The position numbers and the translations under genes were made by a program. From contig JAGCUK010000036.1 of the NCBI GenBank assembly GCA_017962925.1, forward strand, positions 1 to 61,510: a stretch of DNA of 61,510 bases, read 5' to 3'. The notes beneath the pieces are model-generated. The model was not told the origin of the DNA. It was given only the letters and a program-made list of their open reading frames with translations, and ran no database searches. The DNA is from Bacteroidales bacterium (GTDB taxonomy: Bacteria > Bacteroidota > Bacteroidia > Bacteroidales > UBA932). Below, in pieces: positions 24,440 to 33,302 of this stretch; the stretch's first letter is position 1, and each line of letters opens with the position of its first letter.

Positions 24440-25718
24440 AGGAACTTCCACCACTTCGGCGGTGGACGCATTCACAGTCGGCAACGACCGCATACTCGAC
24501 CAGAAACTCGCGAAATACGACGTGCTGGGCTCCAAGGCCCATATCGCCATGCTGGAGAGCATAGGCCTGCTTGGCAAGGATGAACTCCAGAAGCTCAATG
24601 CCGGCCTGGACAACATTGCCGCCAGCATCGACAACGGCACATTCAAATTGGAGGACGATGTGGAAGATATCCACTCCCAGGTAGAACTCCTGCTCACCAA
24701 GGAACTCGGAGAGATAGGCAAAAAGATCCATTCAGGGCGCTCCCGCAACGATCAGGTGCTGCTGGACATCCGTCTCTTCCTGCGCGACGAACTCAATTCC
24801 GTACGCAGCGAAGTAAAGGAACTCTTCTCCACTCTCCAGGCCCTCAGCGAGCAGCACAAAGAGGTTCTGCTGCCCGGATATACCCACGGACAGATTGCCA
24901 TGCCATCCTCCTTCGGGCTCTGGTTCGGAGCATACGCCGAGGCACTCGTGGACGATCTCAGCATCCTGAATGCCGCCCGCAAAGTGATCAACCGCAACCC
25001 CTTGGGTTCAGCGGCCGGTTATGGCAGTTCCTTCCCCCTCGACAGGGAGATGACTACCCGCCTCCTCGGCTTCGACTCCCCCGTCTATAATAGCATTGCC
25101 GCCCAGCTCGGGCGCGGCAAGAGCGAACGCTGCGTAGCATCTGCACTCGGCGGTATCGCCCTGACGCTCAATAAGTTCGCAGCCGACTGCTGCATGTATA
25201 TGAGTCCCAACTACGGCTTCATCCACTTCCCGGACAGCCTTACTACCGGTTCCAGCATTATGCCTCACAAGAAGAACCCTGACGTCTGGGAGCTTGTGCG
25301 CGCCCGCTGCAACCGCATCCTCGCCTGCGAGAACGAAATTTCGCTTCTTTGCAGCAATCTCCCCCACGGCTATCACAGGGATTACCAGATACTCAAAGAC
25401 ATCCTCTTCCCCGTGCTGGAGATGACTCACGAATGCCTGGACATCACTCTCTACATGCTTCAGAACATAGAGGTCAACACCTCCATCCTGGACAATCCCC
25501 TCTACGAGCAGATGTTCACCGTCGAGGAGGTCAACCGCCGCGTGCTGGATGGAATTCCCTTCAGGGAGGCCTACAGGCAGGTCGGCAAGGAAGTAAATGA
25601 AGGAACGTTCAAATACGATTGCAAAGGCCTCAAGGCCTCCGACCTTGGTCATAGCCATATCGGCAGTCTCGGAAACCTCTGCAACAAGGAGATAGCTGAA
25701 CTGATGGAAGATGAATAA
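24420..25718 (+). CDS. argH: Argininosuccinate lyase
   Basis: 432 residues from the ATG at 24420 (MATLWNKG); an upstream ATG at 24381 would give an atypical N-terminus. The fumarase/aspartase-superfamily signature TTGSSIMPHKKNPD is complete, and HSGRSRNDQV is the substrate-binding block. It splits argininosuccinate into arginine and fumarate. It overlaps argE by 20 bases and carA by eight, so the whole operon is translationally interlocked. Confidence 0.96.
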   Translation: MATLWNKGTSTTSAVDAFTVGNDRILDQKLAKYDVLGSKAHIAMLESIGLLGKDELQKLNAGLDNIAASIDNGTFKLEDDVEDIHSQVELLLTKELGEIGKKIHSGRSRNDQVLLDIRLFLRDELNSVRSEVKELFSTLQALSEQHKEVLLPGYTHGQIAMPSSFGLWFGAYAEALVDDLSILNAARKVINRNPLGSAAGYGSSFPLDREMTTRLLGFDSPVYNSIAAQLGRGKSERCVASALGGIALTLNKFAADCCMYMSPNYGFIHFPDSLTTGSSIMPHKKNPDVWELVRARCNRILACENEISLLCSNLPHGYHRDYQILKDILFPVLEMTHECLDITLYMLQNIEVNTSILDNPLYEQMFTVEEVNRRVLDGIPFREAYRQVGKEVNEGTFKYDCKGLKASDLGHSHIGSLGNLCNKEIAELMEDE

Positions 25719-26862
25719 AGCTGAGCTCATATTGGAAAACGGCCTCCGCATGGAAGGGCTGAGCTTCGGATACGAGGCGGCCTGCAGCGGAGAGTTGGTG
25801 TTTTCCACCTCGATGGTAGGTTATCCAGAGAGTCTGACCGATCCCTCTTACGAGGGGCAGATTCTTTGCGTAAGTTACCCTATCATAGGCAATTACGGTA
25901 TTCCGGCGATGGAGAGGGACGAGTGGGGTGTTTGCCTGGGGTTCGAGTCGGAGAGGATTCATGTGAGGGGGCTGGTGATTTCGGATTATAGCATGAAGTT
26001 CAGTCATTTCGATGCAGTGAAGAGTTTGGGGCAGTGGCTTCAGGAGGAGGGTATCCCGGCCATCTGCGGCATCGACACGCGGCATCTCACTCAGCTTCTG
26101 CGCGATAACGGCACCCTTGCTGCTAGCATAGTGCCTTGGCAGCCGCAGGTTGCACCCTCGCCGACCGCTTCGCTGCGCTTCGCCCCTCCCATCTCCGATG
26201 GGTCCCTCCCTCTAAGCCGAGGGTGGCGTAGGTCCTGCGAGGGTGCACCTGTCGGCTGCGACCAGAATCTGGCAGCAGTCGTAAGTTGTAAAGAACCAAT
26301 CCATTACGGCAAGGGTGCCAAGAGTGTGGTGTTGGTAGATTGCGGGGTGAAGCATCAGATATTACATTGTCTGTTGGAGAGGGGCATCGAGGTACTTCGT
26401 GTGCCGTGGGATACCGACATCAACAACATCGACGCCGACGGCATACTCGTATCCAACGGCCCCGGCGATCCATCCGCCTGCACTCCTGCGATAGAGCATC
26501 TTCGCAAAGCCATCTCCGGCAATCGCCCCATCTTCGGCATCTGCCTTGGAAATCAGCTACTTAGCCTCGCCGCGGGGGCATCTACCTACAAGATGAAATA
26601 CGGCCATCGCAGTCACAATCAACCCGTGCGGATGTGCGGCACCGACCGCTGCTACATAACCTCCCAGAACCATGGATACGCCGTGGACACCGCTACTCTG
26701 GGCGAGGAGTGGGAGCCCTTCTTCATAAACCTCAACGACGGCACTTCCGAAGGCATACGCCACAAGAGCAAGCCCTTCTTTTCGGTGCAGTTCCATCCCG
26801 AGGCCTCCAGCGGCCCCACCGACACTGAATTCCTTTTCGACGACTTCATCTCCGCATTATGA
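25711..26862 (+). CDS. carA: Carbamoyl-phosphate synthase, glutaminase subunit, with in-frame repeat insert
   Basis: 383 residues. The N-terminal small domain, then the class-I glutamine amidotransferase domain with the nucleophile in PIFGICLGNQLL and the His-Glu pair in VQFHPEASSGPTDTEF. Between DTRHLTQLLRDNGTLAAS and LAAVVSCKEPIHYGKG, where homologues have a variable linker, about 40 residues come from a 121-bp palindromic element (26139-26259) and include FAPPISDGSLPLSRGW. The frame stays open, so the enzyme is probably functional. Parts of the gene before and just after the insert use more G- and T-ending codons (AGG, GGG, GTG) than its neighbours. It supplies carbamoyl phosphate to the arginine (and pyrimidine) pathway. 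Confidence 0.95.
   Translation: MNKAELILENGLRMEGLSFGYEAACSGELVFSTSMVGYPESLTDPSYEGQILCVSYPIIGNYGIPAMERDEWGVCLGFESERIHVRGLVISDYSMKFSHFDAVKSLGQWLQEEGIPAICGIDTRHLTQLLRDNGTLAASIVPWQPQVAPSPTASLRFAPPISDGSLPLSRGWRRSCEGAPVGCDQNLAAVVSCKEPIHYGKGAKSVVLVDCGVKHQILHCLLERGIEVLRVPWDTDINNIDADGILVSNGPGDPSACTPAIEHLRKAISGNRPIFGICLGNQLLSLAAGASTYKMKYGHRSHNQPVRMCGTDRCYITSQNHGYAVDTATLGEEWEPFFINLNDGTSEGIRHKSKPFFSVQFHPEASSGPTDTEFLFDDFISAL
26139..26259 (+). repeat. 121-bp palindromic element, copy 1 (inside carA)
   Basis: Ends form an imperfect ~28-bp inverted repeat: GCAGCCG...GGTTGCACCCTCG on the left against CGAGGGTGCACC...CGGCTGC on the right. The middle carries a 28-bp core (26183-26210), two CCCTCCC blocks around ATCTCCGATGGG. 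The same core with one change occurs at 32081-32108 in copy 2. The element is read through in frame, with no stop. Confidence 0.85.
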
Positions 26863-30056: not shown

Positions 30057-30723
30057 TGCGGTTGCGCACCATTCCGCTCACCAGCAGCCATTCTGCCAGG
30101 AGGTAGGTTATCATCACCAGAGGACCCCTGCCCCAGAAATCCAGGCCTGCGAAAGCGTTGATAGCGATCAGTGAATCCGAGATGATGAAAATGATTCCTC
30201 CCCAGAAAATGCGGGAGGCGAATGCCTTGCCGCGGAGCTTCCAAAGCACACCGCTTGCCGCAACTATCATCAGAGTAAAGGCGTAGACAGTTACAACAGC
30301 GCTGAAGGGCCATTCTACGCCGAACAGACTCACAAGGACCGGAGCCAGCGCAAGGGGCCCGAGCAGGCACAGGAACTCCTTCCAGCCCTTCAGGCCGCCC
30401 ATTCCGGAGAGCAGCACTGCCAGATAGAAGAAATGCCCAATCAGGAAGCAGCCCAACCCGGCTGCAAAGAAGATGAAACCCTTGTTGTCCAGCAGCAGGA
30501 GCGTATCTCCTGCGGTATGGAAGCAGAGGCCTACCAGCATCAGCCAGGTCAGTTTACCCTTGAATTCGGGGAGAAGCTGAAGCAGGGCGGCAGCGGCCAG
30601 CGCCGGCATTAACAGAGGTTTGGTGAAAAAGCGGCAGGCATCGTGTCCTGTGATTATGCAAAGCTGATCGAGGACGGCCAGCACCAGGAAAATGATCCCG
30701 GCTATTTTCGTAGATTTTTTCAT
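30034..30723 (-). CDS. YhhN-family membrane protein (lysoplasmalogenase-like)
   Basis: 229 residues with about eight hydrophobic segments and the YhhN/TMEM86 pattern (FxxGLxxFxxGHxxY as [19 protein letters not shown]; late [10 protein letters not shown]). Characterised members hydrolyse lysoplasmalogens. Many strict anaerobes contain plasmalogens, so this fits, although the activity is inferred. It is last in a four-gene minus-strand operon and overlaps the GH95 stop by four bases. Confidence 0.8.
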
Positions 30724-33302
30724 AATATCGTGTATATTTTACCTTTAACCGTATCTATGACGCCTGCCTCTCCGGCATAAGCGTACTTCAAAGGACCGCC
30801 CGCTTTGGAAAGGATCACCAAAGAACGCAGTTCCCCATCTTTCCAGGACATATCCACCTCGAAACCGCCCCTGGCGCAAAGCCCCTTCACCGAGCCCGTG
30901 GGCCAGGAGGATGGCAGCGCCGGGAGTATTTCCAGCACCCCGTTGCGATTTTGCAGCAGCAGTTCCGCCATGCCAGCAGTGCCACCGAAGTTACCGTCTA
31001 TCTGGAAGGGAGGATGATTGTCCCAGAGATTATCCAATGTGCCGAATTTCAGCAGATTAGCCAAAAGCATATGGGCGTGGTCTCCATCCTCCAGGCGTGC
31101 CCAGAGATTGACTTTCCATCCCATGCTCCAGCCGGTCCCGGCATCTCCGCGGTGCTCCAGCACCACCCTTGCCGCTTTAGCCAGCTCAGGCGTCCCGGCC
31201 ACAGTGATGCCGTTGCCAGGATGCAGTCCGAACAGGTGATTCACGTGGCGATGGGTGTCATCGGGATTATCTATGTCCCTGCTCCACTCCATGAGCTGCC
31301 CATAGCATCCTATCCTGTAGGGGGCGATGCTGTCCAGCACATTCTGCCATTCTGCGCGGCGGGAGGCATCCTTCTCAAGATCCTCCGAGGCGGCGATCGC
31401 ATCCGTAAGAATCTCCCTTACCACGGCGTGCACGAAGGTAGCTCCCGCATCCACCGGTCCATGCTCGGGCGAGGTAGTGGGAGCAGCGGTATAATAGCCC
31501 TCAGGATGCTTCCAGAGCATATCGCAGGAGAAGTCGGCGGCACCGGCAATCAAATCGAAAACGTCCGCCAGGTAGTCCTTATCCTGAGTGAACTCGTAGC
31601 GGTCCCACAGATGCGTGGCAAGCCATGGGCCGTCTGCCGGAGCAAGATTCCAGATCATCGACTCCGAATCTCCGGGAGAGGCATATCCATACAGGTTGGA
31701 GGATGTTTCCACCGTCCATCCGCGAGCACCGTAGTAGGCCTGCGCCACCTTCTCCCCAGGCTTTGCAACGGTGCGGATGAAATCCACCAGCGGAGGCATG
31801 CATTCATCCAGATTGGTCATGTTCGCGGGCCAGTAGTTCATCTGGATGTTGATATTATTGTGGTAGTCGGTGTTCCAGGGGCCTTTGAGTTTGTTGCACC
31901 AAATCCCCTGCAGATTTGCCGGCATGTCGCCCTCACGGGAAGAGGCTATCAGCAGATAACGCCCGTATTGGAAATATAGCGCCTCCAGCCCCGGATCCGC
32001 CTCGCCGTCCCTGTAACGGTCTAGTCGGTAGGGTGTTGGCCTGGCGGATAAGGGTTCCCCTCCTCGAGCCGGCCTGACGGCCCCTCCCATCTCCGATGGG
32101 CCCCTCCCACTCCATCCGTGGGCGGATAGGGCGTCCGGAGGGGATACCCTTCCCGCCAGGCAGAGCTCTACTCGGCGATACAGCCGCTGATAATCGGCGA
32201 GGTGGCGGCGGAGGAGGCGCTTCCAGCCGAGTTTGCAGGCGGCTGCAAGGCGATGGGCGGTAACGACGGTGGGGTCGTCACCTTTGAAATAAGTATTGAT
32301 ATCCGTGAAATCCGGATCGAAATTCATTTTATAATTGGTGGCAGATGTCACCAGAAAAACGGCTTCATTGGCAGCAGAGACAGTCAGGACACCGTTTTCG
32401 GAACTGACAGAACCGCCTTTGGCAATGGCCTTTATGCGAAGCGCGAAGCGTTCGCCATTGTTCTTCAGGCGGCCGGAATAGAGGATCTCATCCTCGCCTA
32501 CGCTCACGGTCTCCCCTTCTGCCAGAGGGTTGCGAAGGTAGTTCAAAGTTAGATTCTGGCTCTTCCTGCGGTTTGCGGTAAAGCGTATGGCCATCACCTG
32601 GTCGGGATATGAAACGAAAGTCTCACGCTTGTAGGAGATGCCATCCTGACGGAACTGTACCCTCACCACGGCGGAATCCAGCGACAGGGAGCGCACATAC
32701 CCGTCCACAGTGGCCCCGGGGCCGGATTTAGGATCGGGACGATCGATCTTGACCGGGTTCCATTTCCCACTGTAATTCACTTTCTGCTTGGGTCCTTTGA
32801 CGAAATTCTCCGGCACAGGGCCTTCTTTCAGACCGGTATCGATCAACAATTCTCCCAGCGCGGTCATATAGCCGAAACGCTCGACTTTCTTTCCGTTCTC
32901 GATCTTTTCCGGAATAGCACCGAAGTTCTTCTTGGTGATTTCCTCGGCGAGTTCGTAATTGCCGTCCAGGAAGGCCTGGCGGATATCCGGCAGCAACGCC
33001 GCAGAAGGACGATTGGAATTCCAATAATAGGAAGGATCATCCGTCACCGCAGGGCCGCCTGTCCAGAGGCTTTTCTCATTGAGTGTCAGGCGTTCACGGG
33101 AGATAGAACCCATCACGTTCGCACCCAGGGAGCCGTTGCCCACTGGCAGTGACTTGGATTCCCATTCAGGATCGACTCCCCCGGCCCATTCGGCACTCCC
33201 GGCAGAGGATGTGGGGACGTCGAACCAGATATTCAAAGGGGTCTTGTCCGAAGTGCAGCCAACGAACAGCTCTGCAACAATGATTAAGGCCGTCAGTCTC
33301 AT
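30720..33302 (-). CDS. GH95 alpha-L-fucosidase-type glycosidase, lipoprotein, with in-frame repeat insert
   Basis: 860 residues. The signal [16 protein letters not shown] ends in a lipobox-like LFVGC. GH95 residues are visible: the paired Asn in [15 protein letters not shown], the Glu in [12 protein letters not shown] and the Asp in [15 protein letters not shown]95 cleaves alpha-1,2-fucosyl (or alpha-L-galactosyl) links, for example in xyloglucan or host glycans. About 40 residues between VELCLAG and TPYRLDRY, within the (alpha/alpha)6 region where homologues are short, come from palindromic element copy 2. The residue count is correspondingly above usual. It shares an operon with a MORN protein and an MG2/plug protein, not with SusCD. 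Confidence 0.92.
32040..32160 (-). repeat. 121-bp palindromic element, copy 2 (inside the GH95 gene)
   Basis: Begins CCTGGCGG and ends CCGCCAGG. The 24-base ends (32040-32063 and 32137-32160) are near-perfect inverted repeats. The 28-bp core at 32081-32108 differs from copy 1 in one base. Inner hairpins are CCCAT/ATGGG and CCCAC/GTGGG. Relative to the coding strand the core lies in the opposite orientation from copy 1, yet also has no stop in the used frame. Confidence 0.85.

Follow-up and report, generated by a model that had tools for sequence, protein, structure and literature searches.

Palindromic elements embedded in protein genes are best known from Rickettsia. Rickettsia palindromic elements (RPEs) are palindromic sequences of ~150 bp that lie in frame in unrelated genes, where they are tolerated (Ogata 2000, 2002, cited in the available part of PMC10969869). 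According to the same part of that source, some MITEs also make in-frame fusions at times. In yeast coding DNA, template switching between inverted repeats leads to arm homogenisation and spacer inversion (available part of PMC8604942). The mitochondrial palindromes of Nematomorpha are long inverted repeats within translated genes and, as described in the accessible text of PMC6649704, both arms encode conserved protein and there is no dispersed core. REP/REPIN sequences are small hairpin repeats for which a Y1 transposase acting in trans is the presumed mover, the REPs being extragenic and 20-40 bp long (accessible parts of PMC3116915, PMC6006769 and PMC3733652).

We have analyzed a palindromic element in the carA gene of a Bacteroidales bacterium. 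The window is the whole stretch of DNA that was analyzed, 61,510 nucleotides of contig JAGCUK010000036.1 (assembly GCA_017962925.1). Its own genome, 2.03 Mb in 96 contigs and 84% complete, is referred to as G000; other G numbers denote further genomes and L numbers denote sequence stretches. Like the RPEs, the element is a self-folding palindrome found in frame in many unrelated protein genes. It differs from them (RPEs being known here by description, not by sequence) in belonging to another phylum and in having arms that are not common to its copies. In addition, host sequence can make up one of the arms, and the multi-hairpin core can stand in either orientation at one site; to our knowledge neither feature is known from RPEs, and our verdict is that of an RPE-like family in another phylum which carries both. 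The original prediction of a protein-embedding palindromic family resembling the RPEs is thus supported by the many copies in unrelated genes, the kept frame and the element-free relatives; it rightly pictured the family as palindromic and embedded in proteins, but had not seen that the inverted ends vary between copies, that the core occurs in either orientation or that an arm can be of host sequence.

The likeness to other systems is partial. The element resembles the MITEs described in the available part of PMC10969869 in being short, in having inverted ends and in that no transposase of its own is seen, but it lacks conserved terminal inverted repeats over the long arms. With the yeast case it shares arm homogenisation, arm growth and spacer inversion in genes, whereas the yeast repeats are native with spacers of 2-5 bp in the text available (PMC8604942), and here a dispersed core of tens of nt is flanked by arms of about 20-35 nt. 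No equivalent in Bacteroidales or in the window's genus was recognised in the open-licence literature. The family extends protein-embedding palindromic elements to a large gut Bacteroidales genus, and its host genes include core genes such as atpG and carA.

The carA element and its copies in the source genome

The 121-bp self-complementary element predicted in carA is indeed present at 26139-26259 and lies in frame. It introduces no stop or frameshift, the carA ORF (25711-26862, + strand, 383 aa) being stop-free, and it falls, as foreseen, in the linker between the two CarA domains (CPSase_sm_chain, 6-140, and GATase, 207-381; Pfam/NCBIfam). The inverted ends are imperfect: 26139-26161 pairs with 26237-26259 over 23 nt, interrupted by two bulges of one base each. 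The ~40 added residues first proposed were an overestimate, since the net insert is 28 codons relative to L174, another CarA of the same genus that served as reference for this figure, and 35 relative to G195 (L172). The features of the window are as follows, with strand given for the two genes:

25711..26862, + strand: carA, carbamoyl-phosphate synthase small subunit, with the element in frame (ORF, Pfam/NCBIfam)
26139..26259: whole carA element including arms (sequence, pairing)
26139..26152: outer left arm, which differs in the G145 carA copy and in the second G194 copy
26153..26161: inner left arm, CACCCTCGC, common to a second element copy elsewhere in G194
26162..26182: P2 region, which forms a small hairpin in other copies, variable but still paired
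26183..26210: core as originally delimited, with two C-runs flanking the central hairpin P3 (26188-26202)
26208..26230: P4 region, where CCCTC (26208-26212) can pair with the loop GAGGG (26219-26223), with a flanking GCC/GGC stem
26237..26245: inner right arm, GCGAGGGTG
26246..26259: outer right arm, the bulged complement of 26139-26152
30720..33302, - strand: GH95 glycoside hydrolase gene, with the second copy in frame (ORF, domain match)
32039..32161: second copy, with arms at 32039-32063 and 32137-32161 and core at 32081-32108

CarA linkers were recovered by script from 17 of the 29 genus loci tried. Sixteen of these 17 lack the insert and G194 has it, which speaks against the linker sequence being an ancestral part of the CarA orthologs; the carA gene of G145, which lies outside the 17, also carries the insert. 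The second copy in G194 has the same core and inner 9-nt arms as the carA element, but different outer arms. Plasmid and phage collections contained no match to the carA element at E<=0.001, and the single IMG/VR stretch that was found (L168) is without long arms; a plasmid or phage origin was rejected on these grounds.

The 28-nt core (26183-26210) recurs as predicted at 32081-32108, with one mismatch, in the GH95 gene, which lies on the opposite strand. The arms of this second copy are unlike those of carA, and the inverted ends are therefore not a conserved part of the element. Searches of the rest of the genome found further copies, and the recurrence of the element in G000 is beyond chance. 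A BLAST search with the carA element gave five further places, with E values from 5e-9 to 2e-4. Five cores were used to build a covariance model of 54 positions, whose E-values are rough; it matched 12 places at E<=10, and 10 of these reached E<=1e-4. The BLAST place L004 is absent from the 12. The ABC-F and ApbE copies scored weakly in the covariance search (E of 0.08 and 0.4), and their arms are complementary (scores 16 and 12). The ten host genes in G000 encode CarA, GH95, DapF, a class I/II aminotransferase, the F1 ATPase gamma subunit (AtpG), an E2 acyltransferase, a MatE transporter, an ABC-F protein, ApbE and MtaB. In two similar stretches, L015 and L016 (contigs C33 and C52 of G000, L016 containing the MatE gene), both the element and its arms are the same, probably because of a duplication that followed the insertion. 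Diverged or degenerate relatives of the element are seen in L004 (G000:C78:8735), L282 (E2 in G145), L288 and L289, which hold related pieces with another core or no clear long arms and are perhaps a hint of a wider superfamily.

The copies share one anatomy. Throughout the family, the left arm is followed by the small hairpin P2, a C-run, the central hairpin P3, another C-run, P4 and the right arm, in a structured element of roughly 100-170 nt. P4 is a hairpin whose loop can pair back. A single pair of this loop pairing varies, and its two bases are complementary in all but two of 127 distinct copies (125 in total, with T-A in 97, C-G in 24 and A-T in 4), the loop motif is missing in two more of the 129 copies, and the remaining positions were fixed by the search patterns and are uninformative on conservation. 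The P4 stem and P2, the left hairpin, vary with pairing kept through several pair types, without correction for kinship, as is the case for all the fold counts given here; P2 was not recognised as a hairpin of at least 3 bp in 31 of 129 copies. A P3 stem of 5 bp or more is present in 86 of 134 copies, as against 26% when its halves are swapped between copies, and 29 different variable stem halves occur among these 86. There are 17 G-T mismatches on the strand shown and 48 if the other strand is read, which is only a hint as to the strand that folds. A G-quadruplex role was considered for the paired C-runs, which are G-runs on the opposite strand; conservation of these runs cannot be claimed because the search pattern required them, and they are broken in the mtaB copy of G000. 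A search of the whole window against Rfam gave no match at gathering threshold except a tRNA, with nothing at E<=1 around the element, and a known structured RNA was accordingly rejected.

Distribution and in-frame inserts

Copies are dispersed in one Bacteroidales genus, in both orientations, within genes and between genes. The core was matched at E<=0.01 in 25 of 61 genomes, including the source genome; all of these belong to the window's genus (25 of 37), and none of the 24 genomes from other families gave a match. The genus may correspond to Cryptobacteroides, a rumen genus. In an order-wide draw of 393 genomes from 206 genera, searched under stricter filters (E<=0.001), the sole match was the source genome itself, with none in two other members of the genus and three members of the family. 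A pattern scan of named genomes returned at least 119 stretches. Among the 80 pattern matches listed, 70 come from records of Bacteroidales, Bacteroidia or Bacteroidaceae, in many cases with a rumen or gut sample named in the title, none is from Rickettsia, and 10 are from unrelated, non-Bacteroidota bacteria; nine of these ten were measured for arms (all but L062) and none has long ones. Host proteins in the related species are MtaB, RibF, an RlmI-like SAM methyltransferase, TruA and a radical SAM protein.

The reading frame is kept. Arms were present in 125 of the 146 copies examined; a frame is open through the element and 150 nt to either side in 71 of the 125, and in 62 this belongs to an open frame of at least 250 codons, counts in which near-duplicates were kept and some open frames may be due to chance. 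Eight genes, with flanks found in one open frame, have gained between 28 and 54 whole codons relative to element-free relatives: the net inserts are 28/35 codons in carA, 30/31 in GH95, 54/50 in dapF, 30 in the aminotransferase gene, 35 in truA, 28 in abcF, 36 in mtaB and 34 in atpG. The E2 gene has no empty site from G145, because the E2 gene of G145 carries another insert. The element also supplies conserved proteins with new peptide sequence.

Some linkers are hit in several species, with differing arms and orientations. This is seen in MtaB (L021, L018, L088 and L095) and in the RibF region (L055, L057, L072, L107 and L139), and reflects either repeated insertion at tolerated spots or the remodelling of old inserts.

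Arms, empty sites and orientation of the core

Of 122 pattern copies, 90 lie between long complementary arms (score >=15), as against 1 of 363 swapped pairings; the former count includes unrelated chance matches, and some places are counted twice. The long arms stand at nearly fixed distances from the core. Their sequences are unlike between copies, even within one genome among near-identical cores, and only short inner parts are common to some copies.

In orthologous inserts the two arms change together. Nine comparisons, two of which fall within the atpG set, gave 177 arm positions that are paired and unchanged, 29 that have changed with pairing kept and 15 that are paired in one insert only; these last, uncompensated positions count against the reading that we favour below. 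Identical arms (carA of G000 and G194, L117/L235 and L140/L230) were left out of this count, as were L234 (not recovered), L232/L236 (no such element there) and the other element of L142/L160.

In the dapF, aminotransferase and truA genes the arm at the 5' side clearly consists of host sequence, of which the 3' arm is an inverted copy. The 5'-side dapF arm of G000, GCGGTTGTGGTACAACC (17 nt), is found letter for letter in the element-free gene of G145 and in a diverged form in G194; the G145 stretch is a small palindrome, so that a deletion scar is possible there. The 5'-side arm of the aminotransferase copy is identical in element-free G194, inside a 34-nt stretch that adjoins the core; the other arm is the inverted copy, and 12 native nt are gone. 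As the identical stretch continues into the apparent end of the element, G194 could have lost an element, or alternatively the target could have resembled one. The outer part encodes YRAAVHRLPL and is taken as native because this peptide has a counterpart, YRAEIVPL, in the G198 protein. The truA gene reads MAGEG where the element-free comparison has MGGEG, with the 35 codons added. GH95 and mtaB point in the same sense less clearly, and RlmI (L035) weakly suggests a native 3' arm. In abcF and carA neither arm could be identified as native from the comparisons, the G145 site of the MatE gene forms an imperfect palindrome of its own, and relatives at the intergenic sites L117, L061 and L141 have neither arm (L140 and L142 are uninformative). 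Most of the 13 empty-site alignments in one comparison set are too diverged to decide. An earlier rule, which always placed the native arm to the right of the core, was given up once dapF and truA were seen to have it on the left; from these alignments we propose that it would lie on the 5' side with respect to the gene, RlmI being weakly against this.

The core of the atpG insert has one orientation in G000 and the opposite one in G194 and G145. Opposite orientations were also found for L140 as compared with G207, and for mtaB of G000 as compared with G195. These differences at three sites could reflect separate insertions at one spot. Arm homogenisation and core inversion are the same two signatures as those of yeast template switching in the available part of PMC8604942; here homogenisation between relatives is seen, and spacer inversion is found at the three sites, with separate insertions possible. 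In the gamma subunit of ATP synthase, the opposite orientation of the core in L012 and L277 gives an entirely different inserted peptide.

Mode of spread and candidate enzymes

The reading that we consider the most probable, with confidence somewhat better than even, is that of a selfish mobile hairpin, RPE-like and tolerated in linkers, in which template switching would lengthen the stem out of host DNA and maintain its pairing. It would be a non-autonomous short DNA element that acts as a folded single strand, its core moving as a hairpin, most likely by means of an enzyme provided in trans, for which the Y1 transposase-like proteins of the genus are candidates. The genic survivors would be insertions in linkers or loops with the frame kept. 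After or during insertion, DNA polymerase would switch template between the arms and copy the first-replicated arm into the other, which would lengthen the stem into host sequence, keep the arms complementary and sometimes flip the core. The element would be selfish or near-neutral to its host, and each insertion or flip would create a new stretch of residues in a host protein. The anatomy, the dispersal, the kept frame and the joint change of the arms are shown by the data, and movement as a folded strand, the enzyme, and the moment at which the stem takes in host sequence, at insertion or afterwards, are points that we infer. Mobility, which the original prediction had put forward, likewise follows from dispersal and from presence and absence between species; no transposition event was observed.

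Alternatively, the arms could be made by the insertion itself, if a 3' end at the target were extended through the core and snapped back to leave an inverted duplication of the target. We regard this as a possible but rather doubtful account. It would suit the unrelated arms of copies with nearly identical cores, the 34 nt of aminotransferase target beside the core that are identical in element-free G194, the DapF arm (17 of 17 nt) and the second G194 copy, in which the carA core and 9-nt inner arms are joined to different outer arms. Later template switching, however, is a known process that gives the same pattern, relatives at three intergenic sites are without either arm, and part of the inner arm is common to some copies. 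In the same vein, we suggest only tentatively that the hairpin might build its own terminal inverted repeats at each site by inverted target copying, the core alone being inherited; if this were true, the stem of each copy would be made from the host gene, with new and sometimes flippable peptides in housekeeping proteins as a result.

The favoured hairpin has also to be set against an ordinary MITE-like or RPE-like transposon, in which the arms would be the element's own terminal inverted repeats and their differences old divergence with compensation. Orthologous arms do drift together and the RPEs provide a precedent (available part of PMC10969869), but arms are unrelated among the near-identical cores of one genome and one arm is host sequence in three genes, and we consider such a transposon unlikely. 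Host selection for a conserved structured RNA or regulatory element would explain why pairing is kept through different base pairs; the occurrence of the element in both orientations to genes, in unrelated host genes and patchily among related species, and the lack of an Rfam match, make this very improbable. An assembly artefact of metagenome bins is hardly credible: although the 70 Bacteroidota records among the matches listed are titled metagenome-assembled or uncultured, the same insert with conserved flanks is found in assemblies of separate species, dozens of named records hold copies, and the frame is kept. Filled, empty, inverted and diverged sites make up a natural series in the genus, from which each step in insertion, in the growth of the stem and in the homogenisation of the arms may be read, and the origin and persistence of long, well-paired hairpins in coding DNA thereby become testable.

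Tyrosine (Y1) transposases are the lead candidate for the mobilising enzyme, though unproven in this role. There are six Y1_Tnp matches in G000, and such genes are multi-copy in many genomes of the genus. The core is present in 23 of 27 genus genomes with Y1_Tnp and in 2 of 10 without (Fisher p 0.0004, with kinship and completeness uncontrolled); the exceptions are G014 with nine cores and G030 with one, both without a Y1 match, and four genus genomes with Y1 but no core. In the likeness to REP systems drawn from the accessible parts of PMC3116915, PMC6006769 and PMC3733652, Y1-like proteins are present here, but the C-run motif is not beside the Y1 genes examined (0 of 20 fetched Y1 stretches). 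The diverged copy L004 lies ~1.4 kb from a Y1 match on contig C78 of G000, one of these 20 stretches. Three of the Y1 proteins were compared with NF047646, a model for REP-associated tyrosine transposases: L302 matched with E 5.7e-10 and 39.3 bits, below the cut-off of 80, and L300 and L304 gave no match. A reverse transcriptase was also considered as mover and rejected, as an RVT_1 match is missing from 16 of the 25 core-bearing genus genomes, the source genome included, so that the enzyme is not needed in cis as far as incomplete genomes tell.

Two further observations were made in the genus. Diverged Y1 transposase-like proteins are encoded in multiple copies in the 20 stretches L299-L318; they are about 260-320 aa long, and many of the stretches have an HxH motif. 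Another family of palindromic repeats (about TGCCCGATCAGGTCGGGCATGACG and CATTCCCGGCTTGACCGGGAAT) is present in L232 (G312:C76:46700-47500), in L119 and in the flanks of L127, and it could be a substrate of the Y1 proteins.
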